Positions 2,495-48,888 of a stretch of DNA of 51,645 nucleotides are shown one piece after another. This DNA comes from Gammaproteobacteria bacterium (GTDB lineage Bacteria > Pseudomonadota > Gammaproteobacteria > Steroidobacterales > JABDKV01), in the NCBI GenBank assembly GCA_024638445.1, contig JAHEKH010000001.1:1-51645 (forward strand). Reading direction: 5' to 3'. Under the pieces are notes generated by a model, which was not told the origin of the DNA, searched no databases, and worked only from the letters and a program-made list of their open reading frames with translations. The position numbers and the translations under genes are program-made. The first letter of the stretch is position 1. Every line of letters starts with the position of its first letter.

Positions 2495-2659
2495 TTTCTG
2501 CGTGGCGATGGCGCCCACCGGGTCTTCAGGGAAATCGAATTAGCCGTCGCAAGGGACTGTTTTTCATGGCAACGCTCCGCAGGCAACCGCCATCGTCAAC
2601 GACCGGCAGCCGGGTCAGGTACCCCGCGCCGGAGCGGTTTGGTGTGTGGAGAGTTACGC

Positions 2660-3649
2660 GTGAAAGACACGAAGAAAATACTGGCTCTGGCCCTGGTCAG
2701 CCTGACCTGGTCACCCGCGGCTTTTGCCGTCGGCACGGTAGCCGGTACCGATATCGACAACGTGGCGGAGGTCTCCTACGAGGTTTCCGGATCCGAGGTC
2801 ACCGAGACTTCCAATAACGTCGTCGTCACCGTTGCCGAAGTACTCGACGTTGTCGTGACTCTGCAGAGCCCACCCAAGCCGGTGGCCCCCGGTGACGCTG
2901 CGGAAGAATTGTTGTTCCGGGTGACCAACACCGGTAACGGCAACGAGGCATTTTCGCTCGTACTCGACAGCGCACTGGCCGGCGATGATTTCAACCCGGT
3001 GCCGTCAGCACCGTCCTCTATTTATTTCGATACCGACGGCAGTGGCGACCTTTCCGCCGGTGACACGCCGTATAACCCTGGCGTCAATGATCCCGTGCTG
3101 GCCCCTGACGCAGCCGTCGACGTTTTTATCGTCAACGATATACCGGCGGGCGTGCTCGACGGCCAGATCGGCCGCAGCCTGCTCGATGCTGCCGCAACCA
3201 CCGGCAGCGGTGCGCCGGGCACCGTGTTTGCCGGCGCCGGCGATGCTGGCGTCGATGCGGTAGCCGGAAACTCGGGCGCCAACGACGATGACACCGGTGA
3301 ATACGTCGTGTCCGACGTGCAGCTGGCTATTGCCAAGTCTGCAGCAGTTGCCGATCAGTTCGGCGGCACCGAGCCGATTCCGGGCGCGCAGATCACCTAC
3401 ACGATTGTCGTGACGCCATCCGGCGGCGGTACTGCGGCCAACAGCCTGTTCAATGACCGGGTTCCGGCCAACACGACATACGTGCCCGGGACGATCACGG
3501 TGAATGGCACGCCAATGAGCGACGCGCCTGACGCCGATGCTGCACAGCTGATCACCCTGGCCGGTGACCCCACCGTCAACGTGTTGCTGGGCGATCTGAC
3601 GTCGGCCAGCGGCCCGCAGACGATCGTGTTCACGGTAACGATTGACTGA
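2660..3649 (+). CDS. Exported DUF11-type surface/periplasmic protein (first gene of locus)
   Basis: A 329-residue secreted protein of unknown function. The GTG at 2660 is preferred over an upstream GTG at 2639 because it follows GGAG at proper spacing and begins a clean signal peptide ([14 protein letters not shown], cleavage after AFA). Residues about 28-45 carry the motif [17 protein letters not shown], shared with two other proteins of the locus. Next comes a beta-rich domain with an acidic loop [12 protein letters not shown] (124-135) resembling an EF-hand/dockerin calcium loop, then VFIVNDIP. After an Ala/Gly-rich linker, a DUF11-like domain (about 225-329) ends exactly with its last strand, FTVTID. 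There is no lipobox, sortase motif or PEP-CTERM tail. The layout is paralogous to the gene at 4221. Role not known. Confidence 0.8.
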
Positions 3650-3675
3650 ATAAACACAGAGAGAGGGACAAGGCA

Positions 3676-4149
3676 ATGAAGATATTTATCCTGGCGATAG
3701 CCGCTTTAATACCGGTGATGACGCTCGCCGAGAGCGCCGTACAGGTTCAGACCGTCGCCCAGAAGGAAGAAATCGTGCTCAACGAGCGCGGTGAGTCGGA
3801 AACCAGGCTGGTGCCGGTGACGACCGTGGTGCCGGGTGACGAGGTCATCTACACCATCACGTTTACGAATAACGGCGATGCCGACGCGCAGTCGGTAACC
3901 GTGACTGACCCGGTGCCACAGCAAATGCGCTATGTCGACGGCTCCGCCTTTGGTGGCGGTACCGACATTGTTTTCTCCATCGATGGCGGAAAGACCTTTG
4001 CCGCAGCCGGGGAACTGGTGGTTCAGGAAGCCGACGGCAGCGTGCGCCAGGCGCGCGCAGAGGACTACACCCACATTCGCTGGACCATGCGCAGTCCGCT
4101 GCAGCCCGGCAAGCGGGGCTACGCCCGTTTCCGTGCGCAGCTGCGCTGA
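3676..4149 (+). CDS. Small exported protein with a single DUF11 domain
   Basis: A 157-residue protein with a signal peptide ([18 protein letters not shown]) and one DUF11-like domain. The domain includes [20 protein letters not shown] and then VTDPVP, the usual opening of this Ig-like fold. It ends in the strand ARFRAQLR at the very C-terminus, as in its two neighbours. It lies 26 bases after the preceding gene, with a purine-rich GAGAGAGGGA ribosome-binding region. It lacks the shared N-terminal NxAxVxY motif and the calcium-like loop, so it is a minimal subunit of the set. Its function is unknown. DUF11 domains are widespread in bacterial surface proteins, where they serve as repeating structural modules. 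Confidence 0.75.
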
Positions 4150-4220
4150 TCCAATCGTTTACAGAACCGACGAAGACGAGGGAGTGCCGCTAGAGAGGCA
4201 CAACACCTGGAGAGTATGAA

Positions 4221-5429
4221 ATGAGCAAGTTTGGCCAATTAACCCGGTACGCGACAGCGAGTGTAGCCTTGATGGGCCTGGTCGCCAGCCTGCCGGCGGT
4301 CGCCGCAGGCACCGACCCGGGCGGCACGCGCGCTGGCACCTCGGTGTTCAACCAGGCGCAAATTCAGTACCAGGTCAACGGCGTTGCCCAGACACCGGTA
4401 TTGAGCGACAACGACGGCAACTCTGCGAATGGGATTTCGCCAACCGAATTCGTGGTGGATCGCAAGCTGGATGTGCTGGTGGCCGAAACGAGTCTCAATT
4501 ACAACAGCGCAACGACGGCGACGGTCGTGCCTGGGCAAAGCGGTGCCGTTCTCGCCTGGACCGTTACTAACGAGGGTAACCAGGTGCAGGATTTCCTGCT
4601 GACGGCATCGGCAACCGGTTTCGACCCCTTTGGCGGTGCGGATAACTTCGATGCAGCCGGCGTCTCGGTTTTCGTCGACGTAGACGGCGACGGGTTGTAT
4701 GATCCGCTCGTCGACACGGCGACCTTTGTCGATGAGCTGGATATAAACCAGTCTGTAACTGTTTTCCTGGTCGCCGATATCCCGCTGGCTCAGGCTGACG
4801 GCGATATCGCAGCATACGTGCTCGAAGCCCAGGTTGCCGAAGGCGGTGCGGCCGGGGCGGGCGCGGCGATAACTACAGATGACAGAGCTTCGGCCGATAC
4901 AACGTTGGGCGTGGAAGATGTTTTCGCGGACGGCGAAAACGTCAATCATGCCGGCGACAGTGACCGGGACGGTATCCATTCGTCTGAGGATGCCTTCCAG
5001 GTGGCGGCGGCGGTGTTGTCCGTGCTGAAGAGCTCGCAGGTGATCAGCGATCCGTTTACCTGCCCGGGTGGTGTCTGCCCAGCAGGAGCCAATCCGAAGG
5101 CAATTCCGGGCGCGATTGTGGAGTACATAGTGACCATTTCAAACGCGGTGGGTGGTTCCACGGCAAGCAGCGTCGTGATCTCCGACGATCTCAGCAGCGA
5201 GATGGGCGGTGCCAACCCCAGCCTGGCATTCGTAGCGGACCAGTACGGGGCGGCCGGCGATATTCGCCTGGTCTACACCCCCAGCGCCGGTGCGCCGGTG
5301 ACCACCGATCTCACTGAAGAAGCAGACGCCGATAACGGGCAGTTCATCGCCAGCGTGATAACGGTCAATAACGTGACCCTCAATCCGGGCGACCAGGCTG
5401 ACGTGAGTTTTCGCGTAGAAATACAGTAA
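4221..5429 (+). CDS. Exported DUF11-type protein with calcium-like loops, paralogue of the 2660 gene
   Basis: A 402-residue exported protein with a signal peptide of about 29 residues ending in AVAA. The motif AGTSVFNQAQIQYQVNG follows shortly after cleavage, matching the start of the 2660 product. A first beta domain holds VTNEGN, an acidic loop DVDGDGLYDPLVD (153-165) and VFLVADIP. A second acidic loop, DSDRDGIHSSED, lies at 246-257. The last ~130 residues are a DUF11-like domain (IPGAIVEYIVTISNA) ending in the strand VSFRVEIQ. Order and motifs match the 2660 product, so the two are paralogues. Two cysteines in CPGGVC could form a disulphide. It lies 20 bases before the giant gene at 5449. 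Function unknown. Confidence 0.78.
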   Translation: MSKFGQLTRYATASVALMGLVASLPAVAAGTDPGGTRAGTSVFNQAQIQYQVNGVAQTPVLSDNDGNSANGISPTEFVVDRKLDVLVAETSLNYNSATTATVVPGQSGAVLAWTVTNEGNQVQDFLLTASATGFDPFGGADNFDAAGVSVFVDVDGDGLYDPLVDTATFVDELDINQSVTVFLVADIPLAQADGDIAAYVLEAQVAEGGAAGAGAAITTDDRASADTTLGVEDVFADGENVNHAGDSDRDGIHSSEDAFQVAAAVLSVLKSSQVISDPFTCPGGVCPAGANPKAIPGAIVEYIVTISNAVGGSTASSVVISDDLSSEMGGANPSLAFVADQYGAAGDIRLVYTPSAGAPVTTDLTEEADADNGQFIASVITVNNVTLNPGDQADVSFRVEIQ

Positions 5430-5448
5430 CCAGGAGGAAGCGGCGCGC

Positions 5449-8400
5449 ATGACTACGCGCACCGACGGTATATACAAGAAAACGCGGCGCAAGAGGCTTA
5501 TCCGCTTACCCGCATTTCTTTCAGGCAAAGACGCGCGCCACACCCTGGCGCGCGTCGTTGCGTTGCTGACCGGTGCAATCGTGCCGGTCCTCGGTGCAGC
5601 TGCGACTCCACCGGGCACGCTTATACCCAACGTTGCCACCGTCTCTTACACGGTGGTCAGCGGCAACAGCCGGTCAGTCAGCAGCAACACCGCTGCAGTC
5701 GTTTCCAAGCTGCGACGCACCCAGGCCTCCGTCGATTTCGTCCGGGTCAGCCCTGGCAGCTTTGATTTTTCGGCGCCTACCGGCCCGACATCCTGCGAAA
5801 CGGGCTCTGGCCTGGCCCAGCTGCCGGCACCGACGCTGGCGGATGGAACGGAGCTCGACGTCAGCGATCCGCAGCCGTTGAGCAGCACCCAGTTTTTTCA
5901 TACCGGCGAGGCATTTTTCGTCCAGGTCAGCGATCTCGACCAGAACCTCGACGCAGCGACCGCCGAGACGGTCAGGGTGCAGCTCGAGGTTGCGGCCTCA
6001 GGCGACCTGGAGATCGTCGAGCTGACTGAGTCAGCCGCCGACAGCGGCGAGTTCATCGGCTATGTGCCCAGCGGCCGTATGCCGGGTGTGCGCCACGACT
6101 GCGTGCTGCAGGTTGCAGCCGGTTTTGACGTCAGCGTGATGTACGTCGATCCCTCCGACCCCAGCGATATCAGCTCCGACTCGGCGCTGGTCGACCCGCT
6201 GGGCCTGGTTTTCGATTCCACCACCGGCCAGCCGCTCAACGATGCCATCGTACGGCTGATCGACGTCGCGACCGGATTGCCGGCGCTGGTTGTCGGTGAC
6301 GACGGGGTGAGCGAATTCCCGGCCGAAGTCGTCAGCGGCGGTGTCGCAACTGACAGCGGCGGCACCGACTACGATTTTGCGCCGGGCAACTATCGTTTCC
6401 CGCTGGTTAGTCCGGGCCAGTACCGCCTGGAGGTCACGCCGCCGGCCGGTTACGCGGCGCCGTCCACGGTGGCCATCATCGAGTTGCAGGCTTTGCCGGG
6501 AGCGCCGTTCAGCCTGGGGCCCGGCTCATTCGGCGATCCGTTCATGGTTGATCCCGGTCCTGCGATCATGATCGATATTCCCCTGGATCCGGTTTCGACT
6601 GCGCTGTTCCTGCAGAAGTCGACCACGACTGCGGTGGCCTCGCTCGGCGATTTCATCAAGTATACGCTCACCCTCGACAACGCCGATTCCCAGCGCACGG
6701 TCAACGATATTCTTGTCGATGACGACCTGCCGGTCGGTCTGCGCCTCATCCCCGGTTCCGTGCGGGTCGGTGGTGCTGCCGCAGACGACCCGGTTGTGAG
6801 CAGCGACCGCCGCCGTCTGACTTTCGACGTCGGTGACCTGGCGCCCGGGCAGCGTGTCACTATTGACTATGTTGCTGAACTGGCGGCCGGCACCAAGGGG
6901 CCGGAGGTGGTCAACAGCGCAATGGCCAGGGCTGCCGGCGGCGCGGAGTCGAACCTGGCAACGGCGTCAGTCCGTATCGCCGAGGCACTGTTCCGCAGTC
7001 ACAGCACCGTCGTCGGCCGGGCGATCCTGGGCAGTTGCGATAACAACGTTGCTAATGACGACAACGGTCTCGAGGGCGTGCGAATCTACCTCGACGACGG
7101 CCGTTACGCGGTAACCGACGAGGGCGGGCGCTATCACTTCGAGGGGCTGCAGCCCGGCACCCATGTCGTGCAGCTGGACGTCGACACCGTGCCGGAGGGC
7201 TACGAGATCGTTCACTGCGAGCGCAACGCCCGGTTTGCCGGCCGCGCCTATTCGCAGTTTGTCGATCTTCGCCCCGGCGCCCTGTGGCGCGCCGATTTCC
7301 ACCTGCGCGCGCTCCCGGCGCCGACCGGCGAAGTCGCGGTCAACCTGTCGTCTGCGACCGCAGCCCGGGATGTCATTTACACGCTTGCCATTAGCGGGAA
7401 TGGCATTCCAGTGAGCAACGTCAAGGCAATGGTCATGCTGCCCGATGACGTCATCTATGTGCCGGGCAGTTCGCGGCAGGCAGATGCCCGGATTGGCGAC
7501 CCCCAGATCAACGGTAACCTGCTGGTTTATCCGCTGCCCGATTCCAGCGGTGAACCCTGGCTGACCGAAATACGTTTCCGTGGCCTGCCCGGCGCCAGCG
7601 CCGGTGAATACGTCACGAAGGCGCTGGTGAGCTTCGACTCGGCCACCGCAAAGCGGCAGCGTACGCCGCTGGCCGACAACACGCTCATCCGTGAACCGCC
7701 GGAATCCGAACGGGTCGATTTCGTCTTTGAGACTCATTTCGATACCCGGAGGGCCGAGCTCAAGCCGCGGGACCGGGCTGCAATCGCCGACGCGCTCGCA
7801 GGTTGGGACGATGCCAGTGATATCCATGTTGTCGTGACCGGTCATACCGACTCGGTACGGATCGCGCCGCAGAATCGACATGAGTTCGCGGATAACTACG
7901 TCCTGTCGAAAGCCCGGGCGCGTGCGGCCGCGGATTTCGTCCGGTCACTGCTGAAGCTGGCGCCGGAACAGGTCAGTCTGCGGGGCTACGGCCCGGACCA
8001 GCCGCTGGCCAGTAACTCCACCGCCGCAGGCCGGGCACAAAACCGCCGGGTTGAGATCCAGGTGTGGGGCGAAATTCCGCTCATGCCCGGCGCCATTCGC
8101 CTGGGCAAACGCCACAGCGGGCCACAGCGGCTGGAGCTCGCAGCCGAAGCTCCGCTCACGCTGTCGCAGGCGCCGCTCGAGGCTGGCGACCCTATGGCGG
8201 ACTACGCGGATACCGGCTGGATTTCGCGCCTGGCGCCGGGCATCGAGCTGCTGCTGCCACAGCCGGGTTACAACCCGCCGATTCCATCGCTACGTATCGC
8301 GGTCAAGCACGCGCCCGGCCAGGCGGTGGAGCTGACCTTGAATGGCGAACCGGTCAGTCCGCTGAGCTTCGAAGGCACCGATACCAACGGCGAAAAAACG

Positions 8401-11340
8401 GTCAGCCTCAGCCGCTGGCGGGGCGTCGATCTGCAGGAAAATGACAACGTGCTGGTTATGACCGTGCACGATAAGGACGGCACAATCGTTCGCAGTGTGG
8501 AACGGGTCGTCCACCTGTCCGGTGGCCCGGTACGCGCCGAAATTGATCGCGAGGCATCCTCCCTGGTTGCCGATGGCCGGACCCGTCCGGTGATTGCCGT
8601 TCGTCTTTATGACCGCTGGGGCCAGCCGGCAAGGCCCGAATCGATGGGAACCTATCGCGTCGATCCGCCGTATCGTTCCTGGTTCGAGGTCGAGTCCCTG
8701 CGCGACAACCAGCTCCTGGCTCTCGGCAGCCGCGAACCGGTTTACCGGGTCGGTGCAGACGGGCTGGCACGCATCGAGCTGGAGGCGACCTCGAGGTCCG
8801 GCGAAGTGGTGCTTCACATGGAGTATCGCGATCAGCGCGAGGAGGAACTGCGTGCGTGGCTGGAGCCGGCCGCGCGTGACTGGATCCTGGTGGGTTTTGC
8901 CGAAGGCACGGCCGGCTACAACACGCTGAGCGACAACGTGCAGTCCGCCCGCGACGCCGGTAACGAGGAAGACTTTTACACCGATGGCAAGGTGTCGTTC
9001 TTCGCCAAGGGGCGGGTCAAGGGCGAGTTCCTGCTGACGCTGGCCTACGACTCCGATCGCGATGAGGAAGCTGCGCGGCAGCGGCTGCATGGCACTATCG
9101 ATCCGGACCGTTTTTATACGCTGTACGGCGACGCTACGGAACAACAGTTCGATGCAGCGAGCCAGGACGAGCTGTACCTGAAAATCGAGCGTGGCCAGTT
9201 CTACGCCCTGTTTGGCGACTACGACACCGGGCTGACGGTGACCGAATTGTCCCGCTATGACCGCAGCTTCAACGGTTTCTCCAGCGAGTACCAGGGTGAG
9301 CGCTTCGGTTATACGGCTTTTGCCGCGCGCACCGACCAGGCCTTCGTGAAGGATGAGCTGCGCGGTGACGGCACGTCCGGACTCTATCGCCTGTCGCGGC
9401 AGCCGATCGTGGTCAACAGCGACAAGATCACGATCGAGACCCGCGATCGGTTCCGCTCGGAAGAGATCGTCAGCTCCCGCGTGCTTGCACGCCATCTCGA
9501 CTACGACATCGACTATCTTGCCGGCACGGTTTTCTTCAAGGAGCCGGTCCGCCACCGCGACGACAACTTCAATCCGATCTACATCGTGGTCGATTACGAG
9601 AGCCGGGACCCGGTGGACCGCTCGACGACAGCGGGTGGCCGCGCTTCGCTGCGCCTCGCCGATGGCCGGGTGGAGCTGGGCGCCACGCTGATTGATGAAG
9701 GGGTCAGCGGTGCTGACGGCGACCTGGCCGGCGCCGACCTGAAAGTCCGGATCGGCGACGGCACCGAGCTGCGTGTCGAAGTGGCCAGCACCGACACTCG
9801 CCAGGGCGGTAGCGCGGTCGAGGGCGATGCCGCCATAGCGGAACTGACGCACACCTCCGGAAAACTCGACGGCAAGGTCTATTACCGCGAGCTCGATTCG
9901 GGCTTCGGGCTGGGTCAGCAACGTGCCAGTGAAACCGGGACCCGCAAGATGGGTTTTGACGGCCGGCTGCGGTTCAGCGAAAACCTCTCACTGGACGGTC
10001 TGGCCTACCGGCAGGACAACCTGGCAACCGATGTTCGCCGCGACGTTGTCGAGGGCGAAGTACGCTGGCAGGGCAAGGCAGCGACCGCAGGCGTCGGCTA
10101 TCGCGATGCCAGCGATACGGCCCGCGACGGCAGCACCAGCGATTCGGAGCAGCTCTACGTCAACGGCAGCATCAAGACCTTCGATGACCGGCTGACCCTG
10201 CGTACGCAGCTGGAAACCGATATCGGCGACGACGCTAATCTCGCCTATCCCACCCGCACGCTGCTGGGAATGGACTACAAGCTGAACGACGACGTGACCG
10301 TCTACACCGAGCACGAGCAGGCGAGCGGCCGGGACATCGACACACAGATGACCCGCATGGGAGTGCGCGCTACGCCGTGGAGCCAGGCGCAGGTGAACTC
10401 GAGCATCAATCACCAGATGACGGAGAATGGTCCGCGTGCGTTTGCCAGCCTCGGCCTGGTGCAGGGCTGGAAAGTCAACGAGCGCTGGGCGCTCGATTTC
10501 GGTGTCGATCACTCCAACACGCTGCTAGGACCGGAGGCGGAGCCGTTTGACGCGGACGCCGCACTGGCCTCCGGCAATCTCGATGCGGACTTCACGTCGC
10601 TGTACTTCGGCACGCTGTACAAAGCCGACGACTGGACGGTCAACACCCGGACCGAGTGGCGCAACAGTGACGCCGAGCGCCGCGCCGGATTGTTTGGCGG
10701 TTTTTATCGGGAGGAAAACCAGGGCAAGGCTTTCTCGGCATCGCTGCAGTTTTTCAACTCCCAGCGCGATGTCGGCGCCGACCTGACCAATGCCGACATC
10801 CGCCTGAGCTGGGCCTATCGCCCGGTGGGTACGCGCTGGATATTCCTCGACCGGCTGGACCTGGTTTACGAAGACCTGAAAGCGCCCGGCACCGAGGCCG
10901 AGACCTGGCGTATCGTGAACAACCTGCACGCCAACTACATGATCAGCCGCCACAACCAGCTGGGTCTGCAGTACGGCGTCAAGTTCACCCGTGCCGATAT
11001 CGACGGATCCGATTACAACGGTTTCACCGACCTGGTCGGCGTCGACTGGCGCCGCGACCTGTCACCCCGCTGGGATATCGGTCTGCAGGGTTCGCTGCTG
11101 CATTCCTGGAACTCAGACGTGATCGACTACAGCCTCGGCGCCGACATTGGCTACTCTTTTGCCCGCAACGTCTGGCTCAGCTTCGGCTACAACATCACCG
11201 GGTTCGATGACGAAGATTTTTCCGAGGCCCGCTATACCGCCCGTGGCCCCTACATCCGTTTCCGGATCAAGGCCGACCAGGACAATCTGCGCGATCGCGA
11301 TTTCTGGTCACGCCGCGAGTCTGACGGTCCGGCGAATTAA
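5449..11340 (+). CDS. Giant outer-membrane protein: DUF11, SdrD_B-like, OmpA-like and Ig-like domains plus C-terminal beta-barrel
   Basis: A 1963-residue protein with a strong ribosome binding site (AGGAGG). A long basic N-terminus and hydrophobic segment (about 33-52) form an extended signal sequence. In order: shared motif PGTLIPNVATVSY (about 54-66); Ig-like and carboxypeptidase-regulatory-like regions to ~380; DUF11 domain (386-508); SdrD_B-like domain (522-620); a second DUF11-like domain (628-752); OmpA-like peptidoglycan-binding domain (754-875, with TGHTDS and NRRVEI); invasin-like Ig region (to ~1140). From ~1143 (RDWILVGF) to the end, short alternating strands look like a large outer-membrane barrel, interrupted by an insert at about 1310-1385. 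There is no TonB plug. It is the likely membrane anchor for the three small DUF11 proteins encoded upstream. Function unknown. Confidence 0.8.
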   Translation: MTTRTDGIYKKTRRKRLIRLPAFLSGKDARHTLARVVALLTGAIVPVLGAAATPPGTLIPNVATVSYTVVSGNSRSVSSNTAAVVSKLRRTQASVDFVRVSPGSFDFSAPTGPTSCETGSGLAQLPAPTLADGTELDVSDPQPLSSTQFFHTGEAFFVQVSDLDQNLDAATAETVRVQLEVAASGDLEIVELTESAADSGEFIGYVPSGRMPGVRHDCVLQVAAGFDVSVMYVDPSDPSDISSDSALVDPLGLVFDSTTGQPLNDAIVRLIDVATGLPALVVGDDGVSEFPAEVVSGGVATDSGGTDYDFAPGNYRFPLVSPGQYRLEVTPPAGYAAPSTVAIIELQALPGAPFSLGPGSFGDPFMVDPGPAIMIDIPLDPVSTALFLQKSTTTAVASLGDFIKYTLTLDNADSQRTVNDILVDDDLPVGLRLIPGSVRVGGAAADDPVVSSDRRRLTFDVGDLAPGQRVTIDYVAELAAGTKGPEVVNSAMARAAGGAESNLATASVRIAEALFRSHSTVVGRAILGSCDNNVANDDNGLEGVRIYLDDGRYAVTDEGGRYHFEGLQPGTHVVQLDVDTVPEGYEIVHCERNARFAGRAYSQFVDLRPGALWRADFHLRALPAPTGEVAVNLSSATAARDVIYTLAISGNGIPVSNVKAMVMLPDDVIYVPGSSRQADARIGDPQINGNLLVYPLPDSSGEPWLTEIRFRGLPGASAGEYVTKALVSFDSATAKRQRTPLADNTLIREPPESERVDFVFETHFDTRRAELKPRDRAAIADALAGWDDASDIHVVVTGHTDSVRIAPQNRHEFADNYVLSKARARAAADFVRSLLKLAPEQVSLRGYGPDQPLASNSTAAGRAQNRRVEIQVWGEIPLMPGAIRLGKRHSGPQRLELAAEAPLTLSQAPLEAGDPMADYADTGWISRLAPGIELLLPQPGYNPPIPSLRIAVKHAPGQAVELTLNGEPVSPLSFEGTDTNGEKTVSLSRWRGVDLQENDNVLVMTVHDKDGTIVRSVERVVHLSGGPVRAEIDREASSLVADGRTRPVIAVRLYDRWGQPARPESMGTYRVDPPYRSWFEVESLRDNQLLALGSREPVYRVGADGLARIELEATSRSGEVVLHMEYRDQREEELRAWLEPAARDWILVGFAEGTAGYNTLSDNVQSARDAGNEEDFYTDGKVSFFAKGRVKGEFLLTLAYDSDRDEEAARQRLHGTIDPDRFYTLYGDATEQQFDAASQDELYLKIERGQFYALFGDYDTGLTVTELSRYDRSFNGFSSEYQGERFGYTAFAARTDQAFVKDELRGDGTSGLYRLSRQPIVVNSDKITIETRDRFRSEEIVSSRVLARHLDYDIDYLAGTVFFKEPVRHRDDNFNPIYIVVDYESRDPVDRSTTAGGRASLRLADGRVELGATLIDEGVSGADGDLAGADLKVRIGDGTELRVEVASTDTRQGGSAVEGDAAIAELTHTSGKLDGKVYYRELDSGFGLGQQRASETGTRKMGFDGRLRFSENLSLDGLAYRQDNLATDVRRDVVEGEVRWQGKAATAGVGYRDASDTARDGSTSDSEQLYVNGSIKTFDDRLTLRTQLETDIGDDANLAYPTRTLLGMDYKLNDDVTVYTEHEQASGRDIDTQMTRMGVRATPWSQAQVNSSINHQMTENGPRAFASLGLVQGWKVNERWALDFGVDHSNTLLGPEAEPFDADAALASGNLDADFTSLYFGTLYKADDWTVNTRTEWRNSDAERRAGLFGGFYREENQGKAFSASLQFFNSQRDVGADLTNADIRLSWAYRPVGTRWIFLDRLDLVYEDLKAPGTEAETWRIVNNLHANYMISRHNQLGLQYGVKFTRADIDGSDYNGFTDLVGVDWRRDLSPRWDIGLQGSLLHSWNSDVIDYSLGADIGYSFARNVWLSFGYNITGFDDEDFSEARYTARGPYIRFRIKADQDNLRDRDFWSRRESDGPAN

Positions 11341-26443: not shown

Positions 26444-27184
26444 ATGATTTCAGAAGCCGACGCCGTACCCTATCCGCGCCACATCGCCATCGTCATGGAT
26501 GGCAACGGGCGCTGGGCGCGCAAACGAGGGTTGCCGAGAAACGCCGGTCATCGCGCCGGCGTAAAGGCCGCACGGAAAGTTGTCGAGGCCTGCGGTCATC
26601 GCAAGATCGAGGCCCTGACGCTCTTTGCATTCAGCAGCGAGAACTGGAGCCGCCCGCAGCGCGAGGTCACTCTGCTCATGCGACTGTTCGTCGAAGCACT
26701 GCAGCGTGAGGTCGAGGAGTTGCACACCAATAACGTCCGCCTGACCTTTATAGGCGACCGCAGCCGGTTGCCCGGAAAACTGGTTCGCCAGATGGCGTCC
26801 GGCGAGGAGTTGACCGCCGCCAACACCGGTTTGCGGCTCAACATTGCCGTTTCCTACGGCGGGCGCTGGGACCTGGTCGAAGCCGCCCGCAGGCTCGCCG
26901 CCAGGGCAGCAAAGGGTGAACTCGAAGCTGACGCGATCGGTGAGGACGATTTCGCCGGAGAACTCGCGCTCACCGGTGTCGATGACCCTGACCTGTTTAT
27001 TCGAACCGGCGGAGAGCAGCGGGTCAGTAATTTCCTGCTGTGGAATCTTGCCTATTCGGAGTTTTATTTCTCCGATGCGTTGTGGCCGGATTTCGACAGC
27101 AAGTTGCTCGACCAGGCGATAGCCGATTTCACCCGCCGCCAGCGACGTTTCGGGCGAACGGCTGAGCAGCTCAGTGCCGGTTGA
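26444..27184 (+). CDS. uppS: Undecaprenyl diphosphate synthase
   Basis: A 246-residue cis-prenyltransferase that condenses eight isopentenyl diphosphates onto farnesyl diphosphate to make the C55 carrier for peptidoglycan and O-antigen. The motifs HIAIVMDGNGRWARKRG (catalytic Asp), GHRAGVKAARKVVE, FAFSSENWSRP and the C-terminal LFIRTGGEQRVSNFLLWNLAYSE are intact. Its substrate must come from an isoprenoid pathway, yet dxr is missing from its usual place downstream. It overlaps cdsA by 11 bases. Confidence 0.97.
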   Translation: MISEADAVPYPRHIAIVMDGNGRWARKRGLPRNAGHRAGVKAARKVVEACGHRKIEALTLFAFSSENWSRPQREVTLLMRLFVEALQREVEELHTNNVRLTFIGDRSRLPGKLVRQMASGEELTAANTGLRLNIAVSYGGRWDLVEAARRLAARAAKGELEADAIGEDDFAGELALTGVDDPDLFIRTGGEQRVSNFLLWNLAYSEFYFSDALWPDFDSKLLDQAIADFTRRQRRFGRTAEQLSAG

Positions 27185-27971
27185 GGGAATCCGCAAGCGG
27201 CTGGTTACCGCTTTGCTGGCGATGGCCGTCCTGGTCGTCGTCCTGTTCCTGTTGCCACCGATATTCGGAGTGTTGGCGCTGGCTTTACTCGTTGCGGCCG
27301 GTGCCTGGGAGTGGACCGGGTTTTTCGGCGAAGTGACGCCGGCACAGCGCGCTGCCTTTCTCGCCCTGATTGTCGCAGCGCTGGCCGTATCCTGGTTTGC
27401 GGTGCCGCTGCAGCCGTTACTCCTGCTGGCGCTGGGCTGGTGGGTTCTGGCGTTTCTCTGGATATTCCGGTTTCCGACCCCGATACCTCGCTGGCTGGTC
27501 TTCACCGCGGGACTGCTGGTGCTGGTGCCAGGCTGGATGGCGGTGGCCCACCTGCATTTCTATTACGGGCCTGAGTGGCTGATGGTTCTGCTGCTGGTTA
27601 TCGGTGGCGCGGACACCGGCGCGTTTTTCACCGGCAAGGCATTCGGCCGGACCCGGCTGGCGCCTGGCGTGAGTCCCGGCAAGACCTGGGAGGGCGCGGT
27701 CGGCGGGCTGGTGCTGGCCGCGACCATTGCGGCTTTCAGCGCCACCTGGCTCGGTCTGCCGCGCAGCTTCCTCGTATCGCTGTGCCTCGCAGTTGCACTG
27801 ATCTCGATAGTCGGTGACCTGACAATCAGCATGTTCAAGCGTAATGCCGGGTTGAAGGACAGCGGCCGCCTGTTTCCGGGCCATGGCGGGGTGCTCGACC
27901 GGGTCGACAGCCTGTCGGCGGGAGCTCCCCTATTCGTTTTCGGTCTGGGCTGGCTGGGTCACATCACGTAA
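27174..27971 (+). CDS. cdsA: Phosphatidate cytidylyltransferase CdsA
   Basis: A 265-residue integral membrane enzyme making CDP-diacylglycerol from phosphatidate and CTP, the precursor of bacterial phospholipids. About seven or eight hydrophobic segments are evident. The family signature near the C-terminus is complete: S-x-x-K-R, then K-D, then F-P-G-H-G-G and D-R-x-D. The GTG at 27174 lies within the end of uppS. The next gene on this strand is rseP, not dxr. Confidence 0.95.
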   Translation: MPVEGIRKRLVTALLAMAVLVVVLFLLPPIFGVLALALLVAAGAWEWTGFFGEVTPAQRAAFLALIVAALAVSWFAVPLQPLLLLALGWWVLAFLWIFRFPTPIPRWLVFTAGLLVLVPGWMAVAHLHFYYGPEWLMVLLLVIGGADTGAFFTGKAFGRTRLAPGVSPGKTWEGAVGGLVLAATIAAFSATWLGLPRSFLVSLCLAVALISIVGDLTISMFKRNAGLKDSGRLFPGHGGVLDRVDSLSAGAPLFVFGLGWLGHIT

Positions 27972-27988
27972 CATTCCGTCGTTCAAAG

Positions 27989-28017
27989 GGAACCTCGATC
28001 ACGTTAAAGTGGTCGTT
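27989..28017 (+). promoter_or_regulatory. Possible sigmaE-type promoter upstream of rseP-bamA
   Basis: GGAACCT at 27989-27995 resembles the sigmaE -35 element GGAACTT. After 16 bases, GTCGTT (28012-28017) partly resembles the sigmaE -10 (GTCNAA). In E. coli, sigmaE drives bamA, skp and lpxD. The match is imperfect and found by eye, in the short gap where dxr would normally lie. Confidence 0.3.
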
Positions 28018-28056
28018 TCATTAAGGGCGGCCCGTTCTGACACCTGAAACCTGCAT

Positions 28057-29418
28057 ATGACGACCATATTGACCTGGATAGTGGCCTTTATCGTGGCGAT
28101 CAGCGTGCTGGTCGCGGTACACGAGTTCGGGCATTACTGGGTCGCCCGGCGTCTCGGCATCAAGGTGCTGCGGTTCTCGATCGGCTTTGGCAAGCCGTTG
28201 TGGCGACGCGTGGCGGGCGCCGACCAGACCGAATACGTCATCTCGGCACTGCCCCTGGGTGGCTACGTCAAGATGCTCGACGAACGCGACTGCCAGGTGG
28301 CACCCGAGGAAGTGCACCGGACGTTCAACCGCGCACCAATCGCGTCGCGGCTGGCGGTGCTGGCCGCAGGACCGATGTTCAATTTCATTTTCGCCGCTCT
28401 TATTTACTGGTTCGTATTCATGAGCGGCGACGATTCGCAGCTGCGCCCGATTATCGGCGAGGTCGAAGCAGACAGCTACGCGGCTTCCGCCGGCCTGGTC
28501 TCCGGTGACGAACTGCTGACGGTCGGGGGCAAGCCGGTGCCGACCTGGCAGGATGCCACGCTTTCTCTGATCGACGATCTGGTCGACGACGGGATTATTG
28601 CGTTGACGGTGCGTGGCGAAGATGGCATCGAGCGCAGCGCGGCAATCGACGTCGGCAGCGCCAAGAAGCAGTTGACCGAGCCGGGAGAGTTGCTGGACGG
28701 CCTGGGTGTTTCGGTGTGGCCCTCAGTCGTCCCGCCGAAACTCGATGAGATCCGTCCCGGGGAAGCCGCCGAGCGAGCCGGGCTGCGTCCCGGGGACCTG
28801 TTGCTTGCGGCTGACGGCACCCGACTGGAGGGCTGGCGCGCCTGGGTCGATTTCATTCGCGCCAATCCGGATCGCGAAGTCGAGGTGACACTGCGCCGTT
28901 CGGGTAATGAGCTGACCCTGCCGCTGACCATCGGCTCGTCCCGGGATGACGGGCAGGTCATTGGCTGGATCGGGGCGGGAGCCGAAGACCCGGTTGCCAG
29001 CCGCCGCATCGAGGTGCATTACGGTCCCGTTGCCGCAGTCGGCAAGGCGGTGGCGAAGACCTACGAGATGAGTGTGTTCACGGTACGCATGTTGTGGCGA
29101 ATGCTGACCGGCGACCTGTCGGCGCGCAATATCAGTGGCCCGATCACAATTGCGGAATATGCCGGCACCACGGCCCAGATGGGTCCGTCTTTTTTCATCA
29201 AGTTCCTGGCGATCGTATCGATCAGCCTGGGCGTGCTGAATCTGCTTCCGGTGCCGATACTCGACGGCGGGCAAATGGTGTTCCAGGTCCTCGAGGCTCT
29301 CAAGGGCAGTCCGCTGTCACCCGAGACCGAACTGCGGGGTCAGCAGGTCGGCATCCTGTTGCTCCTCGGGCTGATGAGCCTGGCTTTTTATAACGACATT
29401 CTCCGGCTGGTGGGGTAA
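28057..29418 (+). CDS. rseP: Site-2 intramembrane metalloprotease RseP
   Basis: A 453-residue inner-membrane zinc protease that cuts anti-sigma factor RseA (releasing sigmaE) and clears signal peptides. The HEFGH motif is at residues 22-26 in the first membrane helix. Two PDZ domains lie in the periplasmic region, around SYAASAGLVSGDELLTVGG and AAERAGLRPGDLLLAADG. The LDGG-type third ligand motif is NLLPVPILDGGQMVF. Length matches E. coli (450). It lies four bases before bamA. Confidence 0.96.
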   Translation: MTTILTWIVAFIVAISVLVAVHEFGHYWVARRLGIKVLRFSIGFGKPLWRRVAGADQTEYVISALPLGGYVKMLDERDCQVAPEEVHRTFNRAPIASRLAVLAAGPMFNFIFAALIYWFVFMSGDDSQLRPIIGEVEADSYAASAGLVSGDELLTVGGKPVPTWQDATLSLIDDLVDDGIIALTVRGEDGIERSAAIDVGSAKKQLTEPGELLDGLGVSVWPSVVPPKLDEIRPGEAAERAGLRPGDLLLAADGTRLEGWRAWVDFIRANPDREVEVTLRRSGNELTLPLTIGSSRDDGQVIGWIGAGAEDPVASRRIEVHYGPVAAVGKAVAKTYEMSVFTVRMLWRMLTGDLSARNISGPITIAEYAGTTAQMGPSFFIKFLAIVSISLGVLNLLPVPILDGGQMVFQVLEALKGSPLSPETELRGQQVGILLLLGLMSLAFYNDILRLVG

Positions 29419-44102: not shown

Positions 44103-46246
<2,144 letters not shown>

Positions 46247-46251
46247 TTCTC

Positions 46252-46539
46252 ATGCGGGTGCTGCTCATCACCCTGTCGGCCGCGCTGCTGGTCATGATGT
46301 ACCGATACTGGCTGTCGGATGACGGAATACGCGAGGTCTGGCGTTTGCGTGAGGCCGTCGCCGTCCAGCAGGAGCAGAACGAGGTGCTGCGCCGGCGCAA
46401 TGCCGAGCTGGAGGCCGAGGTTGCCGATCTCAAGGGCGGCAGCGAGGCCATCGAGGAACGGGCACGCGCGGAGCTGGGAATGACGCGCAAAAACGAGACC
46501 TTCTACCAGGTCGTCGAAGAAGAAGAAAAACCGGAATGA
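46252..46539 (+). CDS. ftsB: Cell division protein FtsB
   Basis: A 95-residue bitopic membrane protein of the divisome (FtsQLB complex). One N-terminal membrane helix (VLLITLSAALLVMMYRYWL) is followed by a leucine/charged coiled coil (about 25-70) and the conserved EERARAELGM segment. It begins five bases after eno. Its stop codon overlaps truD directly: ispD and ispF, which normally follow ftsB, are not here. Confidence 0.92.
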   Translation: MRVLLITLSAALLVMMYRYWLSDDGIREVWRLREAVAVQQEQNEVLRRRNAELEAEVADLKGGSEAIEERARAELGMTRKNETFYQVVEEEEKPE

Positions 46540-47543
46540 CCCTGCCGCGTCTGTGCGGTCCGCCCGCCGCGAGCGGGGTGTTGCGACAACGTCCGCAAGA
46601 CTTCTTTGTCGACGAGATACTTTCCTTCGAGCCCGACGGCGAGGGCGAGCACGAGCTGGTGCATGTCGAGAAAACCGGCGCCAACACGGCCTGGGTAGCC
46701 GGTGCGCTCGCCCGCTTTGCCGGCGTTCGTCCCAGGGATGTTTCCTATGCAGGACGAAAAGACCGGCACGCGGTAACCCGGCAGTGGTTTTCGGTCTGGC
46801 TGCCGGGCCGCAGCGGAATCGACTGGGCGGATTGCGGTATCGAGGGAGTAGAAATACTCGGCACGGTGCGGCACCGGCGCAAGTTGCGCCGTGGTGCCCT
46901 GGCAGGCAACCGGTTCCGGATCGTCATTCGCGAGTTCAGGAACGGAGACGACATCGAAGCACGCTGCGAGCGGCTGGTCCGCGATGGCGTGCCTAACTAC
47001 TTCGGTCCACAGCGTTTTGGTCATGGGCGTCGCAACCTCGAGCTTGCCGTCCGGTTGTTCGAGGGTGCGCGGTTGCGTCGTAACGAACGCTCGATTGCGC
47101 TGTCTGCAGCACGCAGCGAGATTTTCAACGCGGTGCTGGCGGCCCGGATCGACGCCGGCACCTTCTTGGTACCGTTGCCGGGCGAGCCGCTAAGTCCCGG
47201 TGGTGGAAGCTTTTTCTCCTGTGAGCAGCCCGATGAGGAGATCATCCGGCGGGTTGGCATCGGCGAGTTGCACCCGACCGGGCCGATGTGGGGTGATGGC
47301 GGCAATCCGGCAACCGGCGAGGCGGCAGCTTTCGAGGCCGCCGTAGCGGCGCAGTTCGAATTGTTCTGTTCCGGTCTGGCCGGCGCGCGGCTGCGCTTTG
47401 AGCGCCGGCCTCTCCGGGTCATCCCGCAGGAGCTGGCATGGCAGGTCGCGGAGAATGGGCTGGAGCTTCGGTTCCTGTTGCCGCGTGGCGCCTTTGCCAC
47501 CTGCCTGGTCGCCGAGCTGGTCGAAGTCCCGGCGTCGGAATGA
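46536..47543 (+). CDS. truD: tRNA pseudouridine(13) synthase TruD
   Basis: A 335-residue pseudouridine synthase modifying U13 of tRNA(Glu). It shows EKTGANTAWVAGALARFAG, the catalytic-Asp motif AGRKDRHAVTRQWFSV, NYFGPQRFGH and the C-terminal LRFLLPRGAFAT. The ATG overlaps the ftsB stop (ATGA). It converges with the Smr gene, leaving only two bases between stops. Confidence 0.95.
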   Translation: MTLPRLCGPPAASGVLRQRPQDFFVDEILSFEPDGEGEHELVHVEKTGANTAWVAGALARFAGVRPRDVSYAGRKDRHAVTRQWFSVWLPGRSGIDWADCGIEGVEILGTVRHRRKLRRGALAGNRFRIVIREFRNGDDIEARCERLVRDGVPNYFGPQRFGHGRRNLELAVRLFEGARLRRNERSIALSAARSEIFNAVLAARIDAGTFLVPLPGEPLSPGGGSFFSCEQPDEEIIRRVGIGELHPTGPMWGDGGNPATGEAAAFEAAVAAQFELFCSGLAGARLRFERRPLRVIPQELAWQVAENGLELRFLLPRGAFATCLVAELVEVPASE

Positions 47544-48138: not shown

Positions 48139-48888
48139 GTGAACATATTGCTCAGTAACGACGACGGATACCATTCGAAGGGGCTTGCCGCACTGTCGGG
48201 CGCCCTGGAGGATATCGCCGACATCACAGTCGTTGCTCCCGACCGCAACCGCAGCGGGGCCAGCAATTCACTGACCCTTGATGCGCCGCTGCGGATCAGG
48301 CGCCAGGGGCCCGGTGTTTTTTGTGTCAACGGTACGCCCACCGATTGCGTGCATGTCGCGATTACCGGGTTTCTCGAATCCGACCCGGACATGGTGATTT
48401 CCGGTATCAATCACGGTGCCAATCTGGGCGATGACGTTCTGTACTCGGGAACGGTTGCCGCGGCGACGGAAGGACGTTTTCTCGGGCTGCCGGCCATTGC
48501 CATTTCGCTGGTGTCGGGGCGCAGTGCCAACATGCCGGCAGCGGGCCGGGTGGCCCGCGACCTCGTTCAGAGGCTGCGGAGCACACCGCTGCCACAGGAC
48601 ACCATACTCAATGTGAACGTGCCGGACCTGCCGTACGAAGAGATCGAAGGCCTGCGCGCCACCCGTCTCGGATACCGTCATCGCGCGGAACCGGTCGTGC
48701 GATCCAAAGACCCGCGTGGCCAGACCATTTACTGGGTCGGTCCGGCCGGGCCCGAACAGGACAGCGGACCGGGCACGGATTTTCATGCTATCGCCAACGG
48801 CTACGTGTCGGTAACGCCGCTGCAGGTAGACCTGACGGCGCACGCAACGATCGAATCGATCGCCGACTGGCTGGGCGACGAGGCGTGA
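48139..48888 (+). CDS. surE: 5'/3'-nucleotidase SurE
   Basis: A 249-residue metal-dependent nucleoside monophosphate phosphatase linked to stationary-phase survival. The N-terminus [16 protein letters not shown] has the paired aspartates, followed by [29 protein letters not shown] and [20 protein letters not shown]. The GTG at 48139 follows GGGGAA at about 9 bases. Its stop overlaps pcm (GTGA). The order surE-pcm-nlpD-rpoS is canonical. Confidence 0.96.

Follow-up and report, generated by a model that had tools for sequence, protein, structure and literature searches.

Replacement of the MEP pathway by the mevalonate pathway is a known phenomenon, usually encountered as a scattered pattern of presence and absence. 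In the type of pathway found in Staphylococcus, Enterococcus, and Streptococcus, the MEP enzymes are replaced by HMG-CoA synthase (HMGS), a class II HMG-CoA reductase (HMGR), mevalonate kinase (MVK), PMK, and diphosphomevalonate decarboxylase (MDD), and the Enterococcus protein MvaE is a fusion of thiolase and HMGR. Legionella and Coxiella are Gammaproteobacteria that likewise carry mevalonate genes. According to a 2026 survey, Legionella species are without PmvK and most of them are without HmgS (PMC13001223). Another published set comprises 181 candidate species without Dxs but with the rest of the MEP pathway (PMC10663253).

We analyzed a gammaproteobacterial window (the whole stretch of 51,645 nucleotides) in which the sites of ispD-ispF and dxr can both be read. 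We consider it very probable that these genes were lost without scars after the lineage had gained the mevalonate pathway and that a cassette encoding a fused protein supplies isoprenoid units from HMG-CoA. The gain would have made the MEP pathway redundant, so that ispD-ispF and dxr could then be lost scarlessly. Isoprenoid units would be made from HMG-CoA by HMGR::MVK, PMK, MDD, and a type 1 IPP isomerase, the fused protein being formed by a class II reductase as the N-terminal half and a GHMP-family mevalonate kinase as the C-terminal half. We infer the enzyme activities, the sequence of gain before loss, and any hand-over of substrate inside the fusion.

Two gene junctions and their genome

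In E. coli K-12, the gene orders are ftsB-ispD-ispF-truD and frr-dxr-ispU-cdsA-rseP, and the MEP-type relatives of our genome within its taxonomic order have ispD-ispF between ftsB and truD, and dxr between cdsA and rseP. The window reads pyrG-kdsA-eno-ftsB-truD-smr-surE near 46.5 kb, with smr on the minus strand and each gene assigned by Pfam, and uppS-cdsA-rseP-bamA near 28 kb (Table 1). The initial annotation had noted the ATGA overlap with ispD and ispF missing between ftsB and truD, on which sequence and Pfam agree, as well as the loss of dxr from a second syntenic site, where we found nothing between the end of cdsA and the start of rseP except the spacer. Its remark that the surrounding gene order is intact also applies to both loci, which match those of the MEP relatives minus ispDF and dxr. 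Bases 46527-46550 are AAAACCGGAATGACCCTGCCGCGT, in which the TGA stop of ftsB occupies 46537-46539 and the ATG of truD begins at 46536. This four-base overlap is a genus-level detail; in the majority of the other mevalonate families, a spacer separates ftsB from truD. Eno is 75-81% and TruD 54-60% identical to the copies in the sister genomes.

Table 1. Window features at and around the ftsB/truD and cdsA-rseP junctions
Feature	Position	Strand	Basis	Remark
uppS (undecaprenyl diphosphate synthase)	26444..27184	+	Pfam PF01255	consumer of isoprenoid units
cdsA	27174..27971	+	Pfam PF01148	
cdsA-rseP spacer, 85 bases	27972..28056	+	tblastn of dxr, cdsA, rseP	dxr site in MEP relatives
rseP (site-2 protease)	28057..29418	+	Pfam Peptidase_M50 + PDZ	
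eno (enolase)	44957..46246	+	Pfam PF00113/PF03952	left anchor of locus, conserved
ftsB (septum formation initiator)	46252..46539	+	Pfam DivIC PF04977, 82 bits	
ATGA junction ftsB/truD	46536..46539	+	sequence and comparison, 55 relatives	site of ispD-ispF in MEP relatives
truD (tRNA pseudouridine synthase D)	46536..47543	+	Pfam PF01142, 201 bits	
surE	48142..48888	+	Pfam PF01975	right anchor, conserved

Elsewhere in the window, a run of secreted repeat proteins extends over positions 2639-11340, with a DUF11 domain at 3676-4149 and a 1963-aa frame (5449-11340) containing DUF11, SdrD_B-like, and OmpA domains.

The genome itself (G000) is a 3.04-Mb MAG of 208 contigs, 82% complete, with the window on contig C130. 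Profile searches of the whole genome, which also covered the possibility that ispD, ispF, or dxr lie elsewhere, gave no match to IspF, Dxr, or IspH. The only match to IspD there was one of 38 bits over 126 profile residues within a 465-aa frame, putatively a GlmU-type nucleotidyltransferase, and the only matches to Dxs were below the cut-off and of the transketolase/pyruvate-dehydrogenase kind, the best in a 759-aa frame. The same searches found HMGR and HMGS. Contig C121 encodes MDD, a PMK-like GHMP protein, a squalene-synthase-like protein, and a type 1 IPP isomerase; the PMK match is weak (TIGR01220, 82 bits versus a cut-off of 166), the step being assigned by homology and operon position. 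The genome thus has what is expected of a mevalonate producer, namely HMGS, HMGR, MVK, PMK (as a weak family match), and MDD, with Dxs, Dxr, IspD, IspF, and IspH absent. The proposal that the lineage has abandoned MEP for mevalonate is borne out by this inventory, with the five tested MEP genes undetected and the mevalonate set present from HMGS onward.

At 82% completeness a single absence is weak, and the case stands on the concordance of five genes and of four sister genomes, which have the same pattern. The missing ispD-ispF and dxr are neither chance nor an assembly error, because the sisters share the junctions wherever these are readable and the genes are not elsewhere in the genome. 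The fragmentary state of the MAG might otherwise invite the explanation that assembly gaps, binning loss, or translocation dropped ispDF and dxr or placed them elsewhere. Both loci are, however, unbroken across the junctions, and the same junctions and absences recur in sisters that are 91-95% complete and in G032, a one-contig genome from the order. We count this explanation, to which we give practically no weight, as already refuted by the concordance over 36 genomes.

Pathway type across the order

We compared 59 genomes, our own and 58 relatives, with the same profiles throughout. The HMGR of G009 is identical to that of a TMED78 record and the HMGR of G047 nearly identical to that of a Woeseiaceae MAG, and our genome probably represents an uncultured gammaproteobacterial family of the order to which Woeseiaceae belongs. 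The mevalonate type, defined by an HMGR::MVK-type reductase, accounts for 36 of them and the MEP type for the other 23. Dxr was found in 22 of 23 MEP-type genomes, IspF in 20, IspH in 21, and Dxs in all 23 (one partial), versus none of the 36 mevalonate-type genomes for Dxr, IspF, IspH, and full-length Dxs; HMGS showed the reverse distribution (31/36 versus 0/23). The missing cells of the MEP type are all in genomes less than 83% complete, except for IspH in G020. Fisher p-values for these tallies range from 7e-12 to 7e-17 and overstate independence, as relatives share history. HMGS was not detected in three mevalonate-type genomes of family f4 (G021, G034, and G045), which are 90-96% complete.

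At the eno locus, compared in 55 relatives, the presence of ispD-ispF follows the pathway type wherever it can be read: the two genes lie 3' of ftsB in every readable MEP genome, and all readable mevalonate genomes have eno-ftsB-(truD)-surE with no ispD-ispF. The second site behaves in the same way, with cdsA-dxr-rseP in MEP and cdsA-rseP in mevalonate genomes wherever it was read. As a separate observation, no truD was recognised in the ftsB-surE interval of f6, f13, f14, most of f10, G032, G043, and G058, which include both MEP and mevalonate genomes.

The mevalonate type occurs in ten families of the order, and the order has switched between the pathways more than once. We draw this from the topology test, from the mixed family f4, and from the placement of f1, the family of the window, among MEP families. 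The species tree was built from PyrG, KdsA, Eno, and SurE only, with E. coli as the outgroup, and its bootstrap had not settled. On this four-gene tree, parsimony gives about six state changes (bootstrap range 5-7), at least two of which are forced by strongly supported branches. Family f4 combines one MEP genome (G007) with three mevalonate genomes, and f1 groups with the MEP families f10 and f12 with modest support (84/94). The loss proposed by the initial annotation therefore stands, whereas its confinement to one lineage does not.

Both loci are otherwise identical in gene order, which would also fit a single switch in the ancestor of all mevalonate families, with ispDF and dxr regained at their ancestral sites by the MEP families. 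We regard this scenario as very unlikely: the AU test rejects a single mevalonate clade (p-AU 0.004; 0.015 without f4), the return of three genes to two ancestral sites is improbable, and ispDF occupies the same site in E. coli.

An ancestor with both pathways, followed by differential loss in the families, is a more serious competitor of repeated cassette acquisition, and we hold it to be possible though the less probable of the two. The HMGR tree, built by a quick method, has three groups (f1, f4, f5, and f9; f3, f6, f13, f14, and f16; and f7), the first two of which join families that alternate with MEP families on the species tree; this speaks for differential loss. Against it, the two pathways were not found together in full in any of the 59 genomes, and the HMGR::MVK of the Woeseiaceae-like f7 branches far from the others, which suggests that it came from a different source. 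Extra unfused HMGRs that are class I-like (TIGR00533) occur in G007, G047, and G013 (L003, L007, and L014). We rejected those of the MEP genomes G007 and G013 as signs of two full pathways, since the enzyme is unfused and class I-like and no HMGS accompanies it.

The fused protein, its cassette, and the DXP puzzle

HMGR and MVK are encoded in one ORF of 749 aa in our genome. Residues 1-388 match class II HMGR (TIGR00532, 420 bits versus a cut-off of 260) and residues 451-723 match mevalonate kinase (TIGR00549, 249 bits versus 163). Glu83, Lys269, Asp285, and His383 are invariant in ten fusion sequences from six families, and the GHMP motifs of the MVK half, where PRAMGLGGSA, SGIDN, and KLTGGGGGG are present, are conserved across the same ten. 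We presume that these residues have the catalytic roles known from Pseudomonas mevalonii HMGR and the GHMP kinases. Judged from its sequence, HMGR::MVK is a predicted bifunctional enzyme in which both catalytic sets appear intact. The best relative of solved structure is 1qax, and we found no solved structure containing both HMGR and MVK domains. No description of the fusion turned up in the literature searched, an absence that is no proof of novelty.

In the genome_contigs collection, the fusion also occurs in other Gammaproteobacteria, Calditrichota, Acidobacteriota, one Planctomycetota MAG, and cultured Cryobacterium species, and hmgR and mvk are adjacent and separate in Virgibacillus, Oceanobacillus and relatives, and Myxococcus. 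The HMGR tree places the fused proteins apart from all unfused ones, with the exception of the G046 copy, and this separation is consistent with a single fusion event that then spread. In G046 (L249), the two domains lie in different frames, the sole such case in the order among the members checked, and the split is probably a sequencing or assembly frameshift.

The order MDD-PMK-(SQS)-HMGR::MVK-IDI is kept in f1, f3-f7, and f9, and only HMGR::MVK-IDI was recognised side by side in f13, f14, and f16; the HMGS gene lies elsewhere, outside the cassette. In f1, f6, and f9, hopanoid genes surround the cassette, among them hpnG, hpnN, hpnA, and hpnH. Such neighbours in several families could mean that the mevalonate genes are confined to making hopanoids or other special products, essential isoprenoids being taken up. 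This is extremely unlikely in our judgement, because no MEP remnant is left, uppS is retained, and f14, with genomes of only 1.3-1.4 Mb, retains both HMGR::MVK and IDI with none of those hopanoid genes adjoining.

DXP, the product of Dxs, is the substrate of PdxJ in vitamin B6 synthesis and of ThiG in thiamine synthesis. PdxJ is retained in 34 of the 36 mevalonate genomes, all without Dxs, and full ThiG in seven of the 36. A DXP-dependent B6 route needs PdxJ as well as Dxs for the supply of DXP, and only PdxJ was found. PdxS does not provide another B6 route, as it is absent from all 59 genomes. An ordinary PdxJ, 58-66% identical to that of E. coli, is found in f3, f4, f7, f13, f14, and f16, with acpS still adjoining pdxJ in f7 and f14. 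A divergent PdxJ of the NF003626 family (34-39% identity to E. coli; 320 bits for the sister G002) is found in f1, f5, f9, and most of f6. Our own copy lies at G000:C91:1141-1854 (L264), and the divergent pdxJ of f1 stands beside thr genes instead of in recO-pdxJ-acpS (L264-L267). Retention in the reduced genomes of f14 argues that PdxJ is in use.

Because PdxJ and ThiG are kept in the absence of Dxs and PdxS, we lean towards the view that DXP is still made by an enzyme other than Dxs or that PdxJ and ThiG take another substrate. Promiscuous thiamine-diphosphate enzymes or RibB-/YajO-like enzymes are a reasonable guess as DXP sources, since E. coli strains with a defective DXS can survive through mutations in aceE and ribB (PMC3424233). 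Dxs-like frames of half length, seen in G006, G012, and G035 (140-144 bits), were rejected as DXP synthases: they are split transketolase-like subunits in surface-sugar gene clusters, and most mevalonate genomes are without them. The neighbourhoods of thiG and pdxJ, with a methyltransferase-like gene by thiG and with thr genes (f1) or recO-acpS (f7) by pdxJ, contained no obvious new candidate for a DXP gene.

Significance and comparison with known systems

One order with more than one switch and with both deletion sites readable at the level of bases offers a testable natural series. Drug sensitivity should differ between the two types, with inhibitors of the fosmidomycin kind expected to have no effect on the mevalonate families, and the HMGR::MVK fusion would provide mevalonate engineering with a naturally occurring catalyst of two steps. 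The retention of PdxJ and ThiG where Dxs is lacking calls into question the textbook role of Dxs as the DXP source and makes the missing enzyme a concrete target. The 181 Dxs-less species (PMC10663253) similarly imply DXP without a recognisable Dxs. They differ in that here all tested MEP genes are gone and PdxJ and ThiG would be the only DXP users.

The initial annotation had likened the lineage to Legionella and Coxiella, which is right as to mevalonate use and loose otherwise, given the enzymes missing from Legionella; our genome has the full set from HMGS onward, a distinction drawn from published description. Another parallel is found in Virgibacillus, Oceanobacillus, Lentibacillus, and Paucisalibacillus, where hmgR and mvk follow each other in the same order with a four-base overlap, succeeded by MDD and PMK. 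Unlike the fusion, the two are separate ORFs, and such an overlapping unfused pair is a plausible pre-fusion arrangement. Compared with the pathway of Staphylococcus, Enterococcus, and Streptococcus, with which our system shares its five enzymes and the replacement of MEP, HMGR and MVK are here one protein, the IPP isomerase is of type 1, and the host is a gammaproteobacterium in which the ancestral gene order of the MEP era is still visible.
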